DNA of 64,000 nucleotides from Christiangramia sediminis (GTDB lineage Bacteria > Bacteroidota > Bacteroidia > Flavobacteriales > Flavobacteriaceae): assembly GCF_020552705.1 (NCBI RefSeq), contig NZ_JAJBZG010000002.1, positions 124,001-188,000 on the forward strand, written 5' to 3'. The notes under the pieces are model-generated. The model was not told where the DNA came from and did not search any database. It saw only the letters and a list, made by a program, of their open reading frames with translations. A program made the position numbers and the translations under genes. Numbering within the stretch: the first letter of the stretch is position 1; each line of letters starts with the position of its first letter. Shown here piece by piece: positions 13,133 to 26,493 of the stretch.

Positions 13133-14279
13133 CAAATTTCTTTTTAATAATTTGCAAAATATTAGCGGCATTAGAGTCCCATCCGTAATTTTCACGTACC
13201 TTAATATTTCCAGTAGAAGCGATTCTCTTCCTTTCCATCTTATTCTCTAGTAAAAATATCATCTTCGCTGTTAAATCATCTTGAGATTTCTTTACTAATA
13301 ATAAATCTTCTCCATCTTCAAAAATTTCTCTTACAGATGGTATATCGGGACCTATTACCGCAACACCAACTGCCATATACTCGAAAATTTTCAAAGGACT
13401 CATGTAAGGATTTGCAGAATGGTGTATTGCTATGTCTAATTCACTTAAATTATCTGCGACCTTTTTATGATCAACCCATCCAGCAAGATGAACTGCTTTA
13501 TCTAAATTTAAAGAATATATATAATCCTTCAAATCTTTATACATTGGACCATCTCCGAAAATTTTTAAAGAGACTTTATCTCCATGTATCGCATGCACAT
13601 TATTAAATGCATTTATTAAGCTCAGTAAATTTTTATGGTAATCTAAAGTACCCACATACCCAAAAGTGGTTCTTGAAGGGTCCACGTCAAAATGCATTTT
13701 GGTTGGAAAGGAATCTAAGGCAACACCATTATGAACTACAAAATCTCTAGAACTTTTCGTTTCTGTCATTATAGTCTCCTTTAAGTATTCGGAAACGAAG
13801 AAATTAGCGTCGGCTTCTTGTAAACACTTCTTCTCTGCATTTTTATAATAATCTCGAAAGGCAATATTTTGAAAATTTTCGTCAAATGGAGATGCATTAA
13901 CTTCCGTTGTTATAATGAGTTCTGGAAATCGTTTTTTTAACTTTGGAATAATTAAAAAATTAGAATCTACTCTGATATGTAAAACATCAATTTTAGACTC
14001 ACTTTTATTAAGAACTTCTACGATTTCCTTATAACTATTAAAATTTCTTCGGTAGAAGAAAAAAGCTTGGAGCAATGAATTCTCTTTTAATTTTTTTTTT
14101 AGTCCCTTATTAACTACTTTATCTCCAGAAGTATTTACAATCTCAGGAGATGGATAAGGTTCTATATTTGATACACTTGGATGTAGGGAAGCTTCTTTTA
14201 AAAAAGCTTCTGAATGAAGCCTTCCCCCGTGATTGGCAATAAAAGCATTAGAATAGTACAAAAGGTTTAGCTCAATCAT
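13119..14279 (-). CDS. GT4-family glycosyltransferase
   Basis: 386 aa. Typical GT-B architecture: an N-terminal HGGRLHSEAFLKEA loop, then FGYVGTLDYHKNLLSLINAF as the linker into the donor domain, and MSPLKIFEYMAVGVAVIGP with PSVREIF near the C-terminus. The motif region is of the SPLKIFEYMA kind, not the EGLP kind, as seen in a large GT4 subgroup. It overlaps both neighbours (8 nt with the GT29-like gene, 14 nt with the next GT4 gene), so it is part of a tight block. Donor not identifiable. Confidence 0.84.
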   Translation of the reverse strand: MIELNLLYYSNAFIANHGGRLHSEAFLKEASLHPSVSNIEPYPSPEIVNTSGDKVVNKGLKKKLKENSLLQAFFFYRRNFNSYKEIVEVLNKSESKIDVLHIRVDSNFLIIPKLKKRFPELIITTEVNASPFDENFQNIAFRDYYKNAEKKCLQEADANFFVSEYLKETIMTETKSSRDFVVHNGVALDSFPTKMHFDVDPSRTTFGYVGTLDYHKNLLSLINAFNNVHAIHGDKVSLKIFGDGPMYKDLKDYIYSLNLDKAVHLAGWVDHKKVADNLSELDIAIHHSANPYMSPLKIFEYMAVGVAVIGPDIPSVREIFEDGEDLLLVKKSQDDLTAKMIFLLENKMERKRIASTGNIKVRENYGWDSNAANILQIIKKKFDENN

Positions 14280-15015
14280 TATTTTCTGAATTAATAATTT
14301 CAGTTAGCTTTTCATCTAGAACAATTGACTTACATAATGACGTTTTTAATTCATTTTTAAAAAGTTGATATTCCAAATCTGCATCATGCACTCCTTGTTT
14401 TTTAAAGTGTTTTTTATTTTCTTCTAAATCTATTACATGATCTCTATAACCTTTAGCATAAGGTGTTTTCCAGAATGTAAAGCCCGTAATATATAATTCC
14501 TTACATTCAGAATTCAAAGCAGAGTATAATCCTGAAAACCCTATAGTTGGCTTTAAAACATTCCCAAATGATCTATCTCGTTGAGCACAATGCTTGTTTG
14601 ACAAGTGGTAGGTTCTATACGACTTATTATATTTCTTATAAAAATTAAATGTTCGTCTGTAGGCATCAAAATCATTTCTTGGATTAATCAAATAATTAAC
14701 ACCCATTTTATTATACAACAAAATATCAAGTGGACCACCACCTCCACTATCGTTATTTTCAAAAAAATTATGAAATAAGATATCTGTTTTACTACCTATG
14801 AATTTTGACTTCTCAATATTCCACGTATGAATGGCCCTATTTATTCTGATCACAATATCAAATTTATTAATGTAATCCCCATTAGGCTCAGAAAATGCAG
14901 AATCTGCACCACCAATTATGGCTACTCTTTTATTATGCAGAACACCATTAATATCTAATTTTTGAACATTCTGCAACATTAGGACTCCACCTTTAATTGA
15001 TCTTATTAAACGCAT
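14272..15015 (-). CDS. GT29-type glycosyltransferase with sialylmotifs (copy 1)
   Basis: 247 aa. It carries in order the features of eukaryote-type sialyltransferases. Motif L: RVAIIGGADSA at 30-40, then INKFDIVIRINRA (49-61) and FIGSKTD (72-78). Motif S: KPTIGFSGLYSAL at 155-167 with LYITGF. Motif VS: H-x4-E as H210-DADL-E215. GT29 enzymes move sialic acid from CMP-sialic acid, and a CMP-sugar donor is expected here too, fitting the three cytidylyltransferases nearby. There is no clear signal or anchor, so it probably works on the cytoplasmic face. Overlaps the HAD gene by 10 nt. Annotation pipelines may label such genes hypothetical. The acceptor, and which of the possible ulosonic acids it uses, are unknown. 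Confidence 0.75.
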   Translation of the reverse strand: MRLIRSIKGGVLMLQNVQKLDINGVLHNKRVAIIGGADSAFSEPNGDYINKFDIVIRINRAIHTWNIEKSKFIGSKTDILFHNFFENNDSGGGGPLDILLYNKMGVNYLINPRNDFDAYRRTFNFYKKYNKSYRTYHLSNKHCAQRDRSFGNVLKPTIGFSGLYSALNSECKELYITGFTFWKTPYAKGYRDHVIDLEENKKHFKKQGVHDADLEYQLFKNELKTSLCKSIVLDEKLTEIINSENND

Positions 15016-15638
15016 ATTTCACTGAATTTATCAATATAACTTTCAAACTTTAATAATTCAGGATTATTATATCCAATAAAATCTATGCCATTATATTCTG
15101 CAGCATCGAAATCATTTATAGAATCACCAATTAATACGCAATCATCAGGACTATAATTTTTTTCAGATAAAAGTTGGTTTACTAATTCTTTTTTTGCAAC
15201 CGGAGAACCATTAATGGTAATAAAAAAGATATCAATGTTCATTTTTTCACATAAGTATCGAAGTTCCTCTTGATCTGATCCTGATACAATATGCATTTCA
15301 AAATCATTCTTATGCGCTATTACAAAATCTAAAGAATCCCTAATCAATAATTTTGATGAAATGAGTTGCTTTTTCATTATTAAGGAAAATTCTTTGGCAA
15401 GTGCATCTACTTCGTGATTCGTTATAGATTCCTGTCTTATAATCTCAAAAAAATATCTGAATTTTACATATCTAGATAATCCCCCATTTGCACTATGGTA
15501 CTCCATTAATAAATCTACCTCATCTACGGGATAATTCTTTAAGACTTCTCTAAAACCGTTATCTCTAACAGGCATCGAATTCATTAAAACCCCATCAAAA
15601 TCCCATAAAATAACTTTCTTTTTTTTCAACAATAACAT
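15006..15638 (-). CDS. HAD-superfamily phosphatase
   Basis: 210 aa. HAD motif I is ILWDFDGVLMN with D13 (nucleophile) and D15. Motif II is HIVSGSD, the motif III Lys is in PVAKKEL, and motif IV is GDSINDFDAAE. The cap inserted after motif I is helical, as in the beta-phosphoglucomutase/Gph group. It lies between the two GT29-type genes and just downstream of the CMP-sugar synthetases. A likely job is dephosphorylating a phosphorylated ulosonic acid, like KdsC or NANP, but the substrate is inferred only from position. ATG at 15638. Confidence 0.8.
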   Translation of the reverse strand: MLLLKKKKVILWDFDGVLMNSMPVRDNGFREVLKNYPVDEVDLLMEYHSANGGLSRYVKFRYFFEIIRQESITNHEVDALAKEFSLIMKKQLISSKLLIRDSLDFVIAHKNDFEMHIVSGSDQEELRYLCEKMNIDIFFITINGSPVAKKELVNQLLSEKNYSPDDCVLIGDSINDFDAAEYNGIDFIGYNNPELLKFESYIDKFSEICV

Positions 15639-15653
15639 ATAAATTTTTGTGAA

Positions 15654-16409
15654 TTATTTTTGTGAATTTAAATTTTCCTCTACAATGATTTTTAATTTCG
15701 AGTCATAGATTAATTCCGCATCGGAATTTCTAATTAATTTCAAAAAATTGGAAAATTCTATTTCTGGATTATGAGCACCTCTTTCCTTCATATGTTTCGA
15801 GTTAACCTCCATATCTTTTAATTGATCGCGGTAACCATCAGCATAAGGTGTTTTATAAAAAGTAAATCCAGTAATAAAAACCTTTTTCGGTTTTGAATTT
15901 AATACCATGTGAATAGCTCTAAATCCATTAGTAGGACCATATCCATCAAATAACTCCTCACATTTTTTTGCCATGCTTTTTTGAAGAATATATATTCTAT
16001 TCCATTTCAGGTACTTTTTATAGACATTAAAAACATTGCGGTGATTAGTTATGTCATGCTTCGCATTAACTAGGTATTTAACATTGTGCTTTTGAAATAA
16101 ATCAAAATCAATTGGACCACCGCCCGTAAAATCTGATTCCAAAAATGAATGTATTAATACATCTGTTCTTTTCCCTAAAAACTTTTCATTATGACTCTTC
16201 CAAGTGGTAATCGCTTTATTAATCCTAATAACATAATCAAATTGATCAATGAAAAAACCATTTTCCATATCGTATGCCGAATCAGCTGGTCCGACGATTG
16301 CGACGCTTTTTTCTGTAAAAAGTTTTTCAGGTTTAAAGATCTTAACACGTAATAACATTAGGCATAAACCTACAATAGATCTGGGTACTCTAGTTAATTT
16401 ATTCAGCAT
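15654..16409 (-). CDS. GT29-type glycosyltransferase with sialylmotifs (copy 2)
   Basis: 251 aa, paralogous to the gene at 14272. Motif L: VAIVGPADSA at 36-45, FFIDQFDYVIRINKA (52-66), FLGKRTD (77-83). Motif S: GPTNGFRAIHMVL at 158-170 followed by VFITGF. Motif VS: H213-NPEI-E218, the H-x4-E pattern. The two copies also share TPYA-x-GYRD and GGGP. The hydrophobic stretch near residues 12-21 is short and may be a membrane contact. The upstream kdsB-like gene overlaps by 11 nt, so this transferase and that CMP-sugar synthetase are probably coupled. Two non-identical copies suggest two linkages or two donors. Confidence 0.75.
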   Translation of the reverse strand: MLNKLTRVPRSIVGLCLMLLRVKIFKPEKLFTEKSVAIVGPADSAYDMENGFFIDQFDYVIRINKAITTWKSHNEKFLGKRTDVLIHSFLESDFTGGGPIDFDLFQKHNVKYLVNAKHDITNHRNVFNVYKKYLKWNRIYILQKSMAKKCEELFDGYGPTNGFRAIHMVLNSKPKKVFITGFTFYKTPYADGYRDQLKDMEVNSKHMKERGAHNPEIEFSNFLKLIRNSDAELIYDSKLKIIVEENLNSQK

Positions 16410-17154
16410 TTAAATTTTCATTTAAAAATTTTTCAACTTTCAATACATCCTCTGGATGATCAACCGGTATTGACTGAGAAGATAATTCAATCATATTAAC
16501 CTTATAGCCCAATTCTAAAAATCTTAAAATCTCAATATCTTCCTGTTCCTCAAGAGGTGTTTTTTTTATTTTACTAAAATTCTTTAGCGCTTCATTTGGA
16601 AAAGCATAAATACAAACCTGCCTCCAAGCTTTTATAAATTTAGATGACTTATTTCCTGGAATAGGGGAACGAGACATATATAACAATTCACCATTTGGTT
16701 TAAATACCACCTTAGGAACTGAAACACTATTGTATTCCGAAAAATTTTTAATTGATGTATAACCATTAATTATAGTAGATTCATCTTTAATAGAATCTAA
16801 TTTCCGTAATACTACTTTTATATCATCAGGATTAAACACCGGTTCATCCCCCTGCACGTTAATATAATACTTGGCTTCAATTTGTTCTGCAACTTCACAT
16901 ACCCGATCTGTACCAGTTAAGACATCCTTTGAAGTCATTAATACATTCATATTTAATGCCTTACAATGGTCATATATTCTAATACTATCCGTTGCAATAT
17001 AGATTAATTCCTTCTTTACCGCCTTTAAACATTGCTCATAAGTCCTTTGTATAATGGACTTACCTTTAATTAGAATTAAGGGTTTTTCTGGCAATCTTGT
17101 AGATTGTAATCTTGCAGGTATGACTATAATAAACTCTTTCATATTACTTTTCAT
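16399..17154 (-). CDS. CMP-Kdo synthetase-like cytidylyltransferase (KdsB family)
   Basis: Couples CTP with a 3-deoxy-2-ulosonic acid. 251 aa (247 if the second ATG at 17142 is used). KdsB hallmarks: VIPARLQSTRLPEKPL at 11-26, IYIATDS, LTGTDRVCEVAE and the metal-binding YYINVQGDEPVFNPDD. The family's normal substrate is Kdo. Because lipid A Kdo genes are not usually found inside an O-glycan cluster, this copy more likely activates a Kdo-like sugar for the neighbouring GT29-type enzymes; that part is inference. It overlaps the GT29 gene by 11 nt and lies 21 nt after the NeuA-like gene. Confidence 0.85.
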   Translation of the reverse strand: MKSNMKEFIIVIPARLQSTRLPEKPLILIKGKSIIQRTYEQCLKAVKKELIYIATDSIRIYDHCKALNMNVLMTSKDVLTGTDRVCEVAEQIEAKYYINVQGDEPVFNPDDIKVVLRKLDSIKDESTIINGYTSIKNFSEYNSVSVPKVVFKPNGELLYMSRSPIPGNKSSKFIKAWRQVCIYAFPNEALKNFSKIKKTPLEEQEDIEILRFLELGYKVNMIELSSQSIPVDHPEDVLKVEKFLNENLNAE

Positions 17155-17175
17155 GCATTTTAAAATATAGGTTTT

Positions 17176-17877
17176 TCAATCTTCAAATTTTTCCTGATTA
17201 AAGGATTGAAAAATTGCTTCAGCAAGTTTGAAGTCTCTTTTCCAATCTACATCAACAGAAGTAATTTTATCCATTTCATACAAATAGGGGTTTGCACCTA
17301 CTCTATCGATCTTAGTTCTATATATTTCAATTGGACTTATGAAAACTGCACTGTTTAACTCATAGATTTTTTTTAAATTTTGAGTTTTAGGCCATCTTTC
17401 GTCTCCTATTCTGTTGATAATATCATTTGATTGAATATCCCATAAAAAATTTTGAATTGTGGTTACAGACATTAATGAATCGTACCCATTATTTAAAGCA
17501 TTAATATAGGTCTTAATACAATCTTTATAAACAGATGTACTGACCATAGGTGAAGTAACATGCGTCCATAAAATATTATCACTTGTAGTTAAATCTGCAG
17601 CATACTTTATAAGATCACTTAAATTGGTATTACTTGAAGCCAAAAAATCAGGTCGAATATCAATTTTTAATCGGGGAAAAACAGGCATTATTTTCTTTGC
17701 TATTTCAATCGATTGCTCATCGTTTGTCGATAAAATCACCTCATCAACATTTAAAGTTGATAGCTGCTTCAATTTTAATTCCAGCAAGCCTCCATCATAC
17801 CCCGAGAACTTTCTGGTATTTTTATTTTTAACTCTTTCACTTCCTTTTCGAGTCGGTAAAAAAACTGCTATAGACAT
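17176..17877 (-). CDS. NeuA-like acylneuraminate cytidylyltransferase family protein (divergent)
   Basis: 233 aa. The N-terminal nucleotide-binding loop reads FLPTRKGSERVKNKNTRKF, a variant of the usual PARGGSKGIP-x-KN loop. VILSTNDEQSIEIAKK, HVTSPMVS and the metal-site-like SVDVDWKRDFKLAE near the C-terminus are as expected for NeuA/PseF/LegF enzymes. A second, canonical NeuA-type gene sits at 22599 in the legionaminic operon. This divergent copy directly follows the aldolase gene (10-nt gap), so it probably activates that enzyme's product. Which ulosonic acid it uses is unknown. Confidence 0.8.
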   Translation of the reverse strand: MSIAVFLPTRKGSERVKNKNTRKFSGYDGGLLELKLKQLSTLNVDEVILSTNDEQSIEIAKKIMPVFPRLKIDIRPDFLASSNTNLSDLIKYAADLTTSDNILWTHVTSPMVSTSVYKDCIKTYINALNNGYDSLMSVTTIQNFLWDIQSNDIINRIGDERWPKTQNLKKIYELNSAVFISPIEIYRTKIDRVGANPYLYEMDKITSVDVDWKRDFKLAEAIFQSFNQEKFED

Positions 17878-17887
17878 ACATTATTTA

Positions 17888-19426
17888 CTAGATTAAAGAA
17901 AAAACTGAGCGAGAATCTAAACTTTCGTATAAAGAAGGTGTAATAGAATTTATAGAAAGATTATGATTCCTTTTTAAACTTTCAATGACATATTCATTTT
18001 CATTAAATAATTCCAGTTCCTGCGGTTTAATATCTTCTTTGTAACCATCATAGCCAGCAAAATAAAAATTCTCCACACCTAAATGTAATGCAGTCTCAAT
18101 TGCAAGTGAAGTAACAGATTCATGATATTTATCTGTGAAAGTTATATCCGTTAACTGAAATGCAACCGGCTCTAAACCTTTAGGAATATAAGTCCCCATA
18201 GTTCTTGGATAAGGCGGAAGTATTACTAATTTGTCTTTGATAATTATATCTTCATAAATCTCTTCTAACCTATGCCCTTCATTCCCCGCCAGACAATGAA
18301 TTTGAAGATTCTTTATATCTTTATACTCTTGAGCATTTTTTGAACTAACATGAATAACACATAGTTCTTCATGCTTTTTGATAAACTCTTTAATAGCCTT
18401 AGAGTGCATTTTACCAGTTGGACCACCTCCAATAATCAAGGCTGATTTATATTTTTTATCCTCATCAAGATTTTTCAAATCAATATTATCTTTTAAGCCT
18501 TTTGATTGATTAGATAGAGCACGAATGATACTATTTAGAGAATAGAATCTTTTTGTTACCCAGGACATTACATCTTTTTGAGGTAACGAATTAGCCCCGG
18601 AAACCATGTAAGGTAAATTTGTCCCCCACTCATAGTCTTTTTGCATCTCGGCGAAGGGATCCACAACTTTACTTAAGGAATTAAAATCGAGATCTAAACC
18701 ATTTTTGGCATTTAAAGCAGTTAATAAAAGTTCAGTCTGAAGATTTCCAGCACCCCTTCCCATTCCCGTCACAGTAGCATCAACGATGCTTGCTCCACAA
18801 TCAATTGCAGTAAGCGTATTAATCAAAGCTAATTGTAAGTTATTATGACCATGAAATCCTATAGCTGTATTAGTTTGATTTCTTACAATATCATAGGTTT
18901 TCCTTACATCTTCAGGATAGACTCCTCCAAAAGAATCAACCATATAAAAATAATCTGCTATGCCATCTACCTCCTTGATTTGACCCAAAAATTCTTTCTC
19001 AGATTCCCAGTTAGACATGTACATTACATTAAAACCAACTTCAAAGCCTAATTTTTTTACAGCAGTGGCCAGAGATAAGGCTCTCTTGAAATTTTGGGGA
19101 TCGATAGCTATTCTTACTAAATGAATATATCCAACACATGGCCCCAATAGATCTGGTACATGTTCAGCTCTCACATCCTTTTCATTGAGAATGATTACTA
19201 ATTTTTTATTACTTAAAGAACTAGATTCTTCCAGAACATATTGAGGACAATAAAAATATTCTCCTAAATAACTATTCATAGGACTAGATCGGTAACCTAT
19301 TTCTAAATAGTCAACCGGAAGATTATTAAAAGCTTCAAAATAGGTCCTAACCAAATTTTTATCAAAATCCCAATTAGTATAATATCCACCGTCTCTAAGT
19401 GTACAGTCTAAAATCTTAAAATTCAT
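17888..19426 (-). CDS. HMGL/HOA-type aldolase domain fused to an unrecognised C-terminal domain
   Basis: 512 aa in two parts. Residues 1-300 are a DRE-TIM metallolyase of the 4-hydroxy-2-oxovalerate aldolase group: DCTLRDGGYYTNWDF at 7-21 (R11 and D12), and GFHGHNNLQLALIN with metal ligands H192 and H194, then GMGRGAGNLQTE. Such aldolases join or split pyruvate and an aldehyde, and a 4-hydroxy-2-oxo acid is exactly the skeleton of a 3-deoxy-2-ulosonic sugar. Residues about 340-512 begin YKSALIIGGGPTGKMHSKAI and include LHLGVENFYFAGYDGY; the fold looks alpha/beta but I cannot name it. The neighbours are a NeuA-like enzyme, a KdsB-like enzyme, a HAD protein and two GT29-type enzymes. Proposed role: making an alternative ulosonic acid. 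Confidence 0.75.
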   Translation of the reverse strand: MNFKILDCTLRDGGYYTNWDFDKNLVRTYFEAFNNLPVDYLEIGYRSSPMNSYLGEYFYCPQYVLEESSSLSNKKLVIILNEKDVRAEHVPDLLGPCVGYIHLVRIAIDPQNFKRALSLATAVKKLGFEVGFNVMYMSNWESEKEFLGQIKEVDGIADYFYMVDSFGGVYPEDVRKTYDIVRNQTNTAIGFHGHNNLQLALINTLTAIDCGASIVDATVTGMGRGAGNLQTELLLTALNAKNGLDLDFNSLSKVVDPFAEMQKDYEWGTNLPYMVSGANSLPQKDVMSWVTKRFYSLNSIIRALSNQSKGLKDNIDLKNLDEDKKYKSALIIGGGPTGKMHSKAIKEFIKKHEELCVIHVSSKNAQEYKDIKNLQIHCLAGNEGHRLEEIYEDIIIKDKLVILPPYPRTMGTYIPKGLEPVAFQLTDITFTDKYHESVTSLAIETALHLGVENFYFAGYDGYKEDIKPQELELFNENEYVIESLKRNHNLSINSITPSLYESLDSRSVFSLI

Positions 19427-21312: not shown

Positions 21313-22584
21313 CTAACTGTTCGAACTATTAGGATCGCTAAAATTATTTAAATAATTAGATATTTTTGAAACCCCATCCACATCACCTTTATAAGATGCA
21401 TCATAAAATGATAATAATTCTTTATTAAATTGATAATTTTGAAAATTACTTTTAATAAAAGGGATTAGCTCTCCTAATTCAGATATAAATGGACAAACAT
21501 TCTTAATCCGGAAGCCGTATAAATCTTGAAATGGAGAATCTGATAGATTTTTTAAAAAAACATTTGTTTCCAATAGTGCTGCTTCTAAAACAATATTTGA
21601 ATCTCCTGAAATTAAAAATTTAATTCTCTTAAGAAAATCCACAGAACTCTCTAATGCTGGATTAGACATTTCAGTCCTTGTATGATCTATTTCTAAAAAA
21701 TTGGTAATACTTGGATGTGGTCTAAGTACTATTGAATAATGGTCAAATATAGAATTAGACAGCAGATCATCCACTAATTTTTTTACTACAAAACTGGAGT
21801 CTAGCGTATTATAAGTAACACCGATTATTAATTTATTATTCTTAACAGAGCCATTGTTCAAATTTCTATAATAATTAGTTTTATAATTTCCTGCCAGTAC
21901 AATTTCAGTTTTATTTTCATAGCTCCAATTCTCTGCGATTTTCTCATACTTATTTTTCATATCCATACCCTCCAAAAATGCAACATCCATTTCAAGAGGG
22001 GGAAAAATCTCACTAACTGACGCATGAGGAATATATGCTGTTGGAACATTACAATGCTTCGCAGCAAATAATAAAGCTCTATTTTTATAAGAGTGATCAG
22101 TAAAAATCACAACTACATCAATCTCATTAGACCTAAATATTTCGAGATAATGTTCATATAATAGAATTCCATTAATCACAATTGGGAGATTGTTTTTGAA
22201 AACTATGGATTTACCATGCTTTTCATACTCAATAAAAATCCTGAAATATTTAACTAATTTTATATAACTGGAAAAAATCCCATTAGAAATATTTATTTCT
22301 TTCCCTCCCTTAATAATTTGATCGGTATTATTATGATAGATTGCATTATGCACATTTGGAATTAAAAGTTCAGCTTGGCTGGCATGTCTTGTATTATCAA
22401 TGTAAAATAATGCTCCTTTATAAAAATTTGTAGGTTTTTTTCTTAAAAATGAAATCAATATATTCATCAAAAGCTTGAAATACACCCAAATTCTATTTTC
22501 TCTAGATTTATTTGGCTGCCGCATATATGCTTTATCATATACAAGCCAGTCAATATTTCTATTTTTTAAATCATCTAATATCAT
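21313..22584 (-). CDS. Putative GT-B surface-glycan transferase, function unassigned
   Basis: 423 aa, no signal peptide. I do not recognise a named family with certainty. The C-terminal half resembles the donor domain of CDP-glycerol/polysialyltransferase-like GT-B proteins: SIVLRPHPSI, then a Gly-Asp-Ser turn in KFLISGDSNIVLEAALLET, and CPFISELGEL. The N-terminal half has VVVIFTDHSYKNRALLFAA followed by VPTAYIPHAS, which resembles the acceptor-side pattern of those enzymes. The position between the CMP-sugar synthetase legF and the ABC exporter fits a transferase for a CMP-activated sugar or a phosphopolyol. Could also be a capsule-modifying enzyme. Confidence 0.55.
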   Translation of the reverse strand: MILDDLKNRNIDWLVYDKAYMRQPNKSRENRIWVYFKLLMNILISFLRKKPTNFYKGALFYIDNTRHASQAELLIPNVHNAIYHNNTDQIIKGGKEINISNGIFSSYIKLVKYFRIFIEYEKHGKSIVFKNNLPIVINGILLYEHYLEIFRSNEIDVVVIFTDHSYKNRALLFAAKHCNVPTAYIPHASVSEIFPPLEMDVAFLEGMDMKNKYEKIAENWSYENKTEIVLAGNYKTNYYRNLNNGSVKNNKLIIGVTYNTLDSSFVVKKLVDDLLSNSIFDHYSIVLRPHPSITNFLEIDHTRTEMSNPALESSVDFLKRIKFLISGDSNIVLEAALLETNVFLKNLSDSPFQDLYGFRIKNVCPFISELGELIPFIKSNFQNYQFNKELLSFYDASYKGDVDGVSKISNYLNNFSDPNSSNS

Positions 22585-24321: not shown

Positions 24322-25479
24322 CTAAAAATTAATGTCGTGAAATTTCTTTTTCAAATCTTTAATCTCCACCTTAGATAGAATATCAATTATTTTTGATGAA
24401 GAATTTCCGTCGCCGTAGATTTGTTTTTGATTTTTGATTTTTACTCTGAAGTCATCACTTAATGCTAATTTTATACCTTGTAGGATAGAGTTCTCATCAT
24501 TTTTTGTATGAATAACGCTTTCTGCAGCTATTCGACCTTTTTGACGATCCCCAATATTAATTGTTGGAATATTAAAAAATGGCGCTTCAAGAATTCCGCT
24601 GGATGAATTTCCAAGTACACAATTCACATATTTTAATGCTGATAAATAGCGTAAATGCCCCAAAGAATTATAAACGACAGCTCTTTCACTATTTTGAGAT
24701 ACAAATTCTTCAATCATTTCATTAATAATCCGTCCATCTTTATCTGAATTAGCGTAGGTAAAAATGAATTTCCCACCTTCAATTTTGTTTAAAATATTTA
24801 AAATAGTTTTAAACTGATCTTTAGCCGTTTCAGACTCTAATGTTACAGGGTGATAAGTAATCAAAAAATTGATAGGACCCAATTTGAAATCTATCGATTT
24901 TTCAAATTCAACCTTATTCATTAATTCCAATTCATTCACAGAATCCAAGCCCATTGCTCCTACATTAAAAACTCGATTTGGAGATTCACCTAATTGAATT
25001 ACTCTTCTCTTATAAATCTCCGTGGATGTAAAATGCAAATAGCTCATTTTAGTTATTGCATGCCGTAAACTTTCATCATAGGCACCTTCAGTAGTTTCTC
25101 CACCATGGATATGAGCAATAGGAATGTTTGCTATGGTTGCAGCTGTTGCCGCAGCTAACATCTCAGATCTATCTCCTAATATAATAATAAGATCTGGAGA
25201 AATTTCATCAAAGGCTTCTGCAAAACTTATAAGGGCTAAACCTATAGATTTTGAAACTCCTACAGCAGTATCTGAAGACAATAGGCATTCTATTTTTTTA
25301 TCAACTTTAAATCCAGAAGCTTCTATATCCTTTATGGTGTATCCAAACTCAGGTGACAGGTGCATTGCGCAGGCTACAATCTGTAATTCTAATTCTGGTT
25401 GATTATTTATCTTCTTGAGCAATGGAGTCAAAATTCCAAACTCAGCTCTTGTTCCTGTTATGACTGCAACTTTTTTCAA
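24322..25479 (-). CDS. legG: Hydrolysing NDP-sugar 2-epimerase, LegG/NeuC family
   Basis: 385 aa. Opens KKVAVITGTRAEFGILTPLL, the N-terminus of the UDP-GlcNAc 2-epimerase (hydrolysing) family. LIIILGDRSEMLAAA, IPIAHIHGGETTEGAYDESLRH and GNSSSGILEAPFFNIPTI supply the catalytic Asp, His and Glu regions. In this operon the predicted reaction is release of 2,4-diacetamido-2,4,6-trideoxymannose from the GDP sugar. Lies 2 nt from ptmE and 3 nt from legI. Confidence 0.87.
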   Translation of the reverse strand: MKKVAVITGTRAEFGILTPLLKKINNQPELELQIVACAMHLSPEFGYTIKDIEASGFKVDKKIECLLSSDTAVGVSKSIGLALISFAEAFDEISPDLIIILGDRSEMLAAATAATIANIPIAHIHGGETTEGAYDESLRHAITKMSYLHFTSTEIYKRRVIQLGESPNRVFNVGAMGLDSVNELELMNKVEFEKSIDFKLGPINFLITYHPVTLESETAKDQFKTILNILNKIEGGKFIFTYANSDKDGRIINEMIEEFVSQNSERAVVYNSLGHLRYLSALKYVNCVLGNSSSGILEAPFFNIPTINIGDRQKGRIAAESVIHTKNDENSILQGIKLALSDDFRVKIKNQKQIYGDGNSSSKIIDILSKVEIKDLKKKFHDINF

Positions 25480-25482
25480 ACC

Positions 25483-26493
25483 TTAGATTTCTATCAATTC
25501 ATCTTCTTTAAAATCCCTAGAAGCAGTCTCGCCTAACACCTTGTCCCATTTCATCGGACTAATTCCATTTCCTGGGCGTTTTACGGTTAAGTTATCCTCA
25601 GTAAGTTTATCCCCCTTTTTAATCTCCTTTGAGGCAATAATACTCTTCCTTGCAATATCTTTATTTTTCATTTCAGATTTGGAAGGTTCCTTTTTTCCAC
25701 TTCCAGAAATGGCTTTTTCTATATTTCTTATAGACTCAACCATCAACTTTAATTCCTCGGGCTCCAATGAAGCTCTATGGTCTGGGCCCGGTAAATTCCT
25801 ATCCAACGTAAAATGCTTTTCTATCACTTTTGCTCCCAAGGCTACAGCAGCAATAGGAACTTCAATTCCTAGGGTGTGATCTGAATAGCCGATTTCAACA
25901 TCCAGTTCCTTTCCTATTCTATTCATCGCCCTTAAATTCACATCATCCATAGGAGTTGGATACTCCGTATTACAATGCACAATTGTGATGTTTTCCTTTT
26001 TCAATCCTGCATTTACAAGTACATCAAAAGCCTCAGTTACCTCCTGCATACTAGCCATTCCTGTTGACATAATTACAGGTTTTTTGAAACTAGCAATCTT
26101 TCTTAAATAAGGTAGATTAGTGATTTCTCCGGAAGGTATTTTAAATAACTCAATATTCAGTTTATTAAGAAACTCAAGAGTATCTAAATCGAATCCGGTC
26201 GAAAGAAACTTAATTCCCTTAGACTTACAATATTCAATTAAAATATTATGAGCATCCTCCGAAAGTTCCAGTTTCTTCAACATTTCATATTGAGAATCGC
26301 TATTTTCAGTATTATAGTTTTGGTATGCTGCTCTTTCTGCAGATTTAGTAACAAGCCCGCTGGCTTTAAAAGTTTGAAATTTTACAAAGTCAGCACCTGC
26401 AATAGATGCCTTATCAACTAATTCCTTAGCTGTTTCTAAATTACCATTATGGTTCACTCCTGCCTCTGCGATAATCAAAACTTGATTTTTCAT
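25483..26493 (-). CDS. legI: N,N'-diacetyllegionaminic acid synthase, LegI/NeuB family
   Basis: Condenses phosphoenolpyruvate with the 6-deoxy-mannosamine derivative from LegG. 336 aa in two domains: a TIM barrel with LIIAEAGVNHNGNLETAKEL, IPSGEITNLPYLRKIA, IVHCNTEYPTP and IGYSDHTLG, then VIEKHFTLDRNLPGPDHRAS; and a C-terminal SAF (antifreeze-like) domain from about 280, KSIIASKEIKKGDKLTEDNL to the end. Overlaps legH by 4 nt. All NeuB-type catalytic segments look intact. Confidence 0.9.
   Translation of the reverse strand: MKNQVLIIAEAGVNHNGNLETAKELVDKASIAGADFVKFQTFKASGLVTKSAERAAYQNYNTENSDSQYEMLKKLELSEDAHNILIEYCKSKGIKFLSTGFDLDTLEFLNKLNIELFKIPSGEITNLPYLRKIASFKKPVIMSTGMASMQEVTEAFDVLVNAGLKKENITIVHCNTEYPTPMDDVNLRAMNRIGKELDVEIGYSDHTLGIEVPIAAVALGAKVIEKHFTLDRNLPGPDHRASLEPEELKLMVESIRNIEKAISGSGKKEPSKSEMKNKDIARKSIIASKEIKKGDKLTEDNLTVKRPGNGISPMKWDKVLGETASRDFKEDELIEI

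Follow-up and report, generated by a model that had tools for sequence, protein, structure and literature searches.

The 64,000-nucleotide stretch of Christiangramia sediminis DNA analysed here (hereafter the window, meaning that whole stretch) encodes, on the minus strand at 14272-19426, a run of six genes headed by a two-domain aldolase of the DRE-TIM type. The core of this run, i.e., the aldolase, one cytidine monophosphate (CMP)-sugar synthetase and a phosphatase of the HAD family, recurs as a cassette of conserved order in other genomes, and it is read here, with a probability of about 0.6, as a module that supplies a surface polysaccharide with a CMP-activated 3-deoxy-2-ulosonic acid; a sialic-acid-like sugar would probably be made there by a first step unlike those of the known pathways. 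An earlier note, based on the window alone, had described one close run of an aldolase, a NeuA-like and a KdsB-like enzyme, a HAD phosphatase and two transferases of glycosyltransferase family 29 (GT29), and all six were confirmed. In the order of transcription, the genes are the following:

17888-19426, minus strand, two-domain DRE-TIM aldolase, 512 amino acids (Pfam HMGL-like, 84.6 bits, cut-off 29)
17176-17877, minus strand, NeuA-like CMP-sugar synthetase (CTP_transf_3, 30.7 bits, cut-off 22.6)
16399-17154, minus strand, KdsB-like CMP-sugar synthetase (CTP_transf_3, 144.9 bits, cut-off 22.6)
15654-16409, minus strand, GT29-family transferase a (Glyco_transf_29, PF00777, 34.9 bits, cut-off 23)
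15006-15638, minus strand, HAD phosphatase (HAD_2, 61.3 bits, cut-off 23.8)
14272-15015, minus strand, GT29-family transferase b (Glyco_transf_29, PF00777, 42.0 bits, cut-off 23)

The intergenic gaps along the run are, in the same order, 10, 21, -11, 15 and -10 bases. The evidence carrying the proposed module comes from the comparison of 85 loci. Of these, 80 are the highest-scoring among 166 relatives that a scan of genome contigs yielded, and five belong to a group of seven loci from relatives of the window's genome, the other two of which (L024 and L026) were excluded because they duplicate the records of L030 and L037. In 84 of the 85 loci a CMP-sugar synthetase is found at most four genes downstream of the aldolase and on the same strand, directly next to it in 71 (median gap of -1 base), and none of the 85 has one within four genes upstream; the sole locus without a synthetase, L060, is on a contig that ends just after the aldolase. 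This linkage lies far above the local background, since in the same loci CMP-sugar synthetases amount to 8 of the 425 genes located more than five genes away from the aldolase. Given that the aldolases of L038 and L039 are identical, the count was also obtained after thinning at 90% aldolase identity, which leaves a synthetase in 74 of 74 representatives besides the window (L060 being lost in the thinning). The HAD gene comes after the synthetase in 78 of the 85 loci, and the cluster to which the window's HAD protein belongs is present in 79. Furthermore, in 296 genomes drawn evenly from the phylum, a full-length aldolase appears at nine places in eight genomes, so that the set is patchy in the phylum; the locus set already included three of these places, another is the window itself, and the five new ones all have both the synthetase and the HAD gene. 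The conserved link to a cytidylyltransferase, which the earlier note had proposed to look for, is thus near universal, extending from these loci and the five new places to the plasmids of Leisingera described below.

The synthetase that fills this position varies: it is NeuA-like in 47 loci, KdsB-like in 31 and of the LegF type alone in six, and the NeuA-like and KdsB-like types occur together in none of the 85, the window alone carrying both. On the aldolase tree the type switches 15 times, at least ten of them forced by starred branches, as if the synthetase types were swapped as fillers of one slot, which is to be expected if NeuA-like and KdsB-like enzymes have the same task and act on a single class of product. 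A core containing both synthetases was accordingly ruled out; the set of two synthetases and two GT29 transferases described in the earlier note is indeed present in the window, but the conserved unit has a single synthetase, the second synthetase and the second GT29 being additions in the window. The doubling of the activation and transfer steps there suggests two activated acids or, alternatively, one acid with two activating enzymes. As a separate observation, one genome (G188) has two cassettes, at L152:4583-8143 and, about 20 kb from it, at L153:4966-9746, one with a NeuA-like and the other with a LegF-type synthetase, and each with an aldolase of the HpcH/HpaI family.

The NeuA-like protein of the window belongs to the same cluster as the synthetase of the 47 NeuA-like loci, and combines its CTP_transf_3 match with the two NeuA motifs, both intact (RKGSERVKNKN and DVDWKRDF); its match to PseF is weak (54 bits, below the equivalog cut-off of 206). 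The KdsB-like protein scores 283 bits on the subfamily model PRK13368, over its cut-off of 255, and 130 bits on the kdsB equivalog TIGR00466, under its cut-off of 155. In the tree of KdsB-like proteins, 28 of the 33 cassette rows, with the window among them, make up a starred branch (99), and 21 housekeeping rows form a separate branch (92, not starred). The other five cassette rows are long and stand apart, under a long-branch warning (L044, L050, L052, L057 and the second KdsB-like gene of L079), and the two of them that were checked, L044 and the second gene of L079, match KdsB models with 190 and 266 bits. A housekeeping KdsB over the curated cut-off is encoded elsewhere in all of the 20 genomes examined out of those holding the 31 KdsB-like loci (hand-picked, mostly named isolates), and the window's own genome (a 3.25-Mb assembly) likewise encodes KdsA and a housekeeping KdsB elsewhere. 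Because of this housekeeping copy, the KdsB-like gene was ruled out as the genome's synthetase for 3-deoxy-D-manno-octulosonic acid (Kdo). A search of 23 further genomes from the window's genus gave no close copy of this KdsB-like gene, the best matches being 32-36% identical.

The cassette is also found outside Bacteroidota. Three plasmids of Leisingera (Alphaproteobacteria) have, among polysaccharide genes, the same gene order with an aldolase about 27% identical, annotated in turn as "aldolase catalytic domain-containing protein", "3-deoxy-manno-octulosonate cytidylyltransferase" and "HAD family hydrolase", and one of these synthetases (L176) is 54% identical to a KdsB-like protein of a cassette. 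Since the part compared does not differ between two of these aldolases, the three plasmids count as about two observations. These results rest on 10 among the 15 matches listed of 262 plasmid records matched, with incomplete gene tables, and the unannotated records from Niallia and Streptomyces were left out of the comparison of neighbourhoods. Shorter homologues occur in other settings (Priestia, Mesorhizobium, Paraburkholderia, L159 and L160), and in none of these five does a cytidylyltransferase adjoin them, the plasmid tables being incomplete and the contig of L160 (5.8 kb), like that of L161 (3.5 kb), short; in Mesorhizobium and Paraburkholderia there is a HAD-IA hydrolase nearby.

Residues 1 to about 310 of the aldolase form a DRE-TIM barrel resembling that of 4-hydroxy-2-oxo acid (HOA) aldolases. 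Over its N-terminal half the protein shares 58% identity with 3dxi (sequence match with E 1e-120), and the structural model built from 86 sequences (mean predicted local distance difference test score, pLDDT, of 91.8), which supersedes an earlier one from eight sequences (pLDDT of 74.8), matches 3dxi with a Z of 43.7 and a root-mean-square deviation of 1.1 over 299 residues. The nearest folds after 3dxi are HOA aldolases (4jn6, 1nvm, 8ih7 and 4lrt, with Z of 29.7-30.8), and the homocitrate- and isopropylmalate-type synthases come at 26.4 and lower. R11-D12 and H192-x-H194, which the earlier note had pointed out, are exactly as claimed (H192-G-H194 in the window); all 86 aldolases conserve these residues and N228 without exception, and the barrel thereby has the Arg-Asp and His-x-His of a metal and pyruvate site. 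The phylogenetic test named in the earlier note did not refute the interpretation, with the cassette aldolases on a branch of their own, apart from two DmpG-type and from isopropylmalate-type enzymes; among named records, that of the window groups with the aldolase of Salegentibacter salinarum. The group designated "single" in this tree includes L161 and L184, open reading frames longer than one domain, and a long-branch warning applies there. Residue 46 is Arg in 84 of the 86 aldolases (the cassette is also present with the two exceptions) and in the three from Leisingera, and is not Arg in DmpG, in the isopropylmalate-type enzymes or in the other homologues of the tree, a distribution suggesting that R46 may help to bind a sugar aldehyde or its phosphate.

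Beyond the barrel, the aldolase has a second domain, absent from the earlier note, of about 190 residues (approximately 320-512, window 17888-18470), with conserved GGG and GYDGY motifs. Weak MptE-like matches to it are seen in 53 of the 86 members at E up to 0.1 (the best, 2.8e-6), that of the window's own protein scoring 20 of 34.6 bits, and its profile resembles GT29 with 51% probability over 32 columns. Among solved structures no significant sequence match was found, the best profile match in the PDB having an E of 0.35; the rows of the structure comparison cover mostly residues 1-415, and therefore a missing fold match for this domain is uninformative. A search with the domain profile among the open reading frames of the 85 loci gave no other clear carrier and one weak match (L089, E 0.003). 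A role as a transferase or in nucleotide binding is a candidate for this domain.

Taken as a pathway, the cassette would start with the aldolase condensing the enolate of pyruvate, held by R11 and by a metal at D12, H192 and H194, with an aldose phosphate, to give the phosphate of a 4-hydroxy-2-oxo acid. The HAD phosphatase would then dephosphorylate this ulosonate phosphate, also driving the reversible aldol addition towards its product, a possible reason for the constancy of the HAD gene; the NeuA-like or KdsB-like enzyme would produce the CMP-sugar, and a CMP-dependent transferase (GT29 in the window, of the polysialyltransferase family in some other loci) would add the sugar to the glycan. 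The aldolase would thus stand in for KdsA or NeuB, which use phosphoenolpyruvate (PEP), and no such PEP-dependent synthase was detected at 14272-19426 with the Pfam and NCBIfam scans; a NeuB cluster lies within the examined flank in only 15 of the 85 loci. The substrates, the order of the reactions and the product (its nature as a 3-deoxy-2-ulosonic acid, and which one) are predicted from sequence, and the genes neighbouring the cassette vary among loci, such that the identity of the aldehyde is not deducible from them. To our knowledge, all known CMP-ulosonic acids (Kdo, sialic, legionaminic and pseudaminic acids) begin with a PEP-dependent synthase, and no description of a set of aldolase, CMP-sugar synthetase and HAD was found in the open-access literature, as far as titles and the beginnings of abstracts tell.

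Regarding the transfer step, both GT29 proteins of the window can be assigned to the family by PF00777 and by sialylmotifs L, S and VS, having HxxxxE and conserved L and S blocks: transferase a contains HNPEIE and GPADSAY, and transferase b, the proposed CMP-ulosonate transferase, HDADLE and GGADSAF, the nearest match of the latter protein being 58% identical and located after the HAD gene in L022. GT29 proteins occur in 21 of the 85 loci, all of them of the NeuA-like type (21 of 21) and none among the 31 KdsB-like ones, a count uncorrected for relatedness, and HxxxxE is kept in 21 of 21 GT29 proteins from these other loci; the window departs from the pattern by joining a NeuA-like synthetase, a KdsB-like one of the cassette clade and two GT29. 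Another 14 loci, none of which has GT29, contain a cluster whose tested member (that of L040) matches the alpha-2,8-polysialyltransferase family PF07388 (L040, L041, L046, L048, L063, L080, L088, L095, L097, L101, L103, L104, L105 and L108), and PF07388 is matched by 11 of the 112 downstream proteins scanned. The Arabidopsis GT29 protein RCKT1 is reported to be necessary for Kdo on rhamnogalacturonan II (PMC11288761), and on that basis the GT29 family need not imply sialic acid; bacterial GT29 proteins have been reported for several proteobacteria (PMC5811610).

Several observations weigh against the module as proposed. In the aldolase, all 86 sequences have a Tyr (Tyr15) where both DmpG rows have the catalytic His (H21 of DmpG, after RDG-x, the base in HOA aldolases); the protein scores 96.4 of the 286 bits required by the HOA equivalog TIGR03217, and its C-terminal domain is explained neither by the MptE-like nor by the GT29 or PDB profile comparisons. 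The HAD protein, in which DFDGV and GDSIND are intact, weakly matches several phosphatase models, reaching 23 of 107 bits on that of KdsC, and six loci have no HAD in the flank: L060 and L047 end at a contig edge, and in L052, L077, L093 and L107 the flanks continue and a profile search for HAD was empty. More than half of the loci (50 of 85) lack both GT29 and the polysialyltransferase-like cluster, and the transfer step is not pinpointed in them. Finally, an aldolase of the HpcH/HpaI family comes directly after the DRE-TIM aldolase in 10 of the 85 loci and in both copies of G188 (L031, L037, L043, L054, L055, L064, L068, L080, L086, L106, L152 and L153; Pfam on L086), placing two aldolases from pyruvate-using families side by side; it keeps the conserved columns that we assume to be active-site residues, and in these tandem loci it could be the true former of the ulosonate.

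Could the synthetases, moreover, be supplied by KdsA or, where present, by NeuB? If that were so, they would activate ordinary Kdo or NeuB-made sugars, and the aldolase and the HAD would make some other small 4-hydroxy-2-oxo acid or modify the sugar, travelling together with the synthetase as serving the same residue. This is the strongest of the competing explanations, albeit an unlikely one. It can draw on the KdsA of the genome and on the good scores of KdsB-like proteins on Kdo synthetase models, as well as on the nonulosonic-acid set located further upstream in the window (NeuC at 24322-25479 and NeuB at 25483-26493) and on a NeuB over the cut-off in 26 of 36 cassette genomes (also hand-picked, mostly named isolates). 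On the other hand, the housekeeping KdsB is already there in every KdsB-like genome examined, and the fixed order of aldolase, synthetase and HAD, even in another phylum, fits a single linear pathway. In addition, NeuB over the cut-off is absent from 10 of the 36 genomes, whose completeness is not given and in which sequence may be missing, and three of these ten have a NeuA-like gene beside the aldolase (L082 and L084 with HAD, L077 without it). The claim of a route free of a NeuB-type synthase consequently stands for the cassette, but not for the genome, which holds KdsA and two NeuB. The second of these is outside the window, in a NeuB-NeuC-LegF-type set of contig C4 (L163:5332-8299), and the genome has in total two nonulosonic acid loci of the PEP-dependent type plus the aldolase cassette.

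Somewhat less probable still is that the aldolase runs a different DRE-TIM reaction, either of the Claisen type with an acyl-CoA or as a lyase, with the C-terminal domain performing a second step, the CMP-activated acid then not being a 3-deoxy-2-ulosonic acid of pyruvate-aldol origin. The replacement of the HOA base by Tyr15, the lack of a significant sequence match for the extra domain among solved structures and the HpcH/HpaI-family neighbours of some loci would be in line with it, whereas HOA aldolases provide the closest fold (Z of about 30, as opposed to 26.4 and lower for the homocitrate- and isopropylmalate-type synthases), the metal site is preserved and the partners are enzymes typical of ulosonate pathways. 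That the aldolase is a degradative or salvage enzyme sitting in polysaccharide loci by chance is highly improbable, since, although characterised DmpG-type relatives are catabolic and have an acetaldehyde dehydrogenase annotated beside them in both plasmid examples examined, no acylating acetaldehyde dehydrogenase partner is present among the 20 genes scanned around the window's aldolase (10815 to 32111) and 84 of 85 loci pair the aldolase with an activating enzyme.

The reading of the cassette as an ulosonic acid module is maintained, and the earlier interpretation as a whole is partly supported. Its main line holds and is now strengthened well beyond the evidence of a single window, the chemistry remaining a prediction, and its assignment of an HOA-type aldolase holds for the fold and the metal site but needs amending, because with a Tyr for the catalytic His and an extra domain this is not a plain HOA aldolase. 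Whether Bacteroidota and Alphaproteobacteria share a modular, PEP-independent de novo route, with a DRE-TIM aldolase carrying a new fused domain in the place of KdsA or NeuB, and with KdsB-like and NeuA-like enzymes interchangeable in the CMP activation of an undescribed ulosonic acid, is a broader proposition for which the odds seem about even. If true, a widespread aldolase-based start would constitute a separate way into the class of CMP-ulosonic acid sugars, new acidic sugars of surface polysaccharides could be predicted from gene content in a large phylum, and the cassette would offer a set of enzymes for synthesis, with three small proteins sufficing for direct testing. As for the surroundings of the run, an ABC transporter gene lies 2 bases upstream of the aldolase, and a 423-residue protein encoded at 21313-22584, midway through the polysaccharide locus, has no match at E 0.01 in Pfam and none at E 0.001 in NCBIfam.

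Compared with known systems, the closest relative of the aldolase is 3dxi, the N-terminal domain of BVU_2661 from Bacteroides vulgatus, which is of the same family but was solved as that domain alone, under a title giving its function as "putative aldolase". With the 4-hydroxy-2-oxovalerate aldolases DmpG and BphI, the cassette aldolase shares the fold and the metal-site residues, and differs from them in the Tyr at the catalytic His, in a distinct C-terminal domain, in having no dehydrogenase partner and in its polysaccharide neighbourhood. The Kdo pathway (KdsA-KdsC-KdsB and a Kdo transferase) proceeds through formation of a C-C bond, a phosphatase step, CMP activation and transfer, and the cassette would follow the same logic, with a KdsB-like enzyme that falls in the KdsB family by the curated subfamily model; in contrast, the cassette has a DRE-TIM aldolase in place of the PEP-dependent KdsA, a HAD far below the KdsC cut-off, and housekeeping Kdo genes that are separate from it. 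The nonulosonic acid pathways, based on NeuB, LegI or 2-keto-3-deoxynononic acid (Kdn)-9-phosphate synthase together with NeuA, have in common with it the NeuA-like CMP activation and the transfer by sialyltransferase-family enzymes, but the cassette has no NeuB, and neither do 10 of the 36 cassette genomes over the cut-off. Among them, the Kdn route includes a phosphorylated intermediate as well as a phosphatase step (PMC6200933), and the cassette can be read as an analogue of this Kdn-9-phosphate route in which a pyruvate aldolase would come first.

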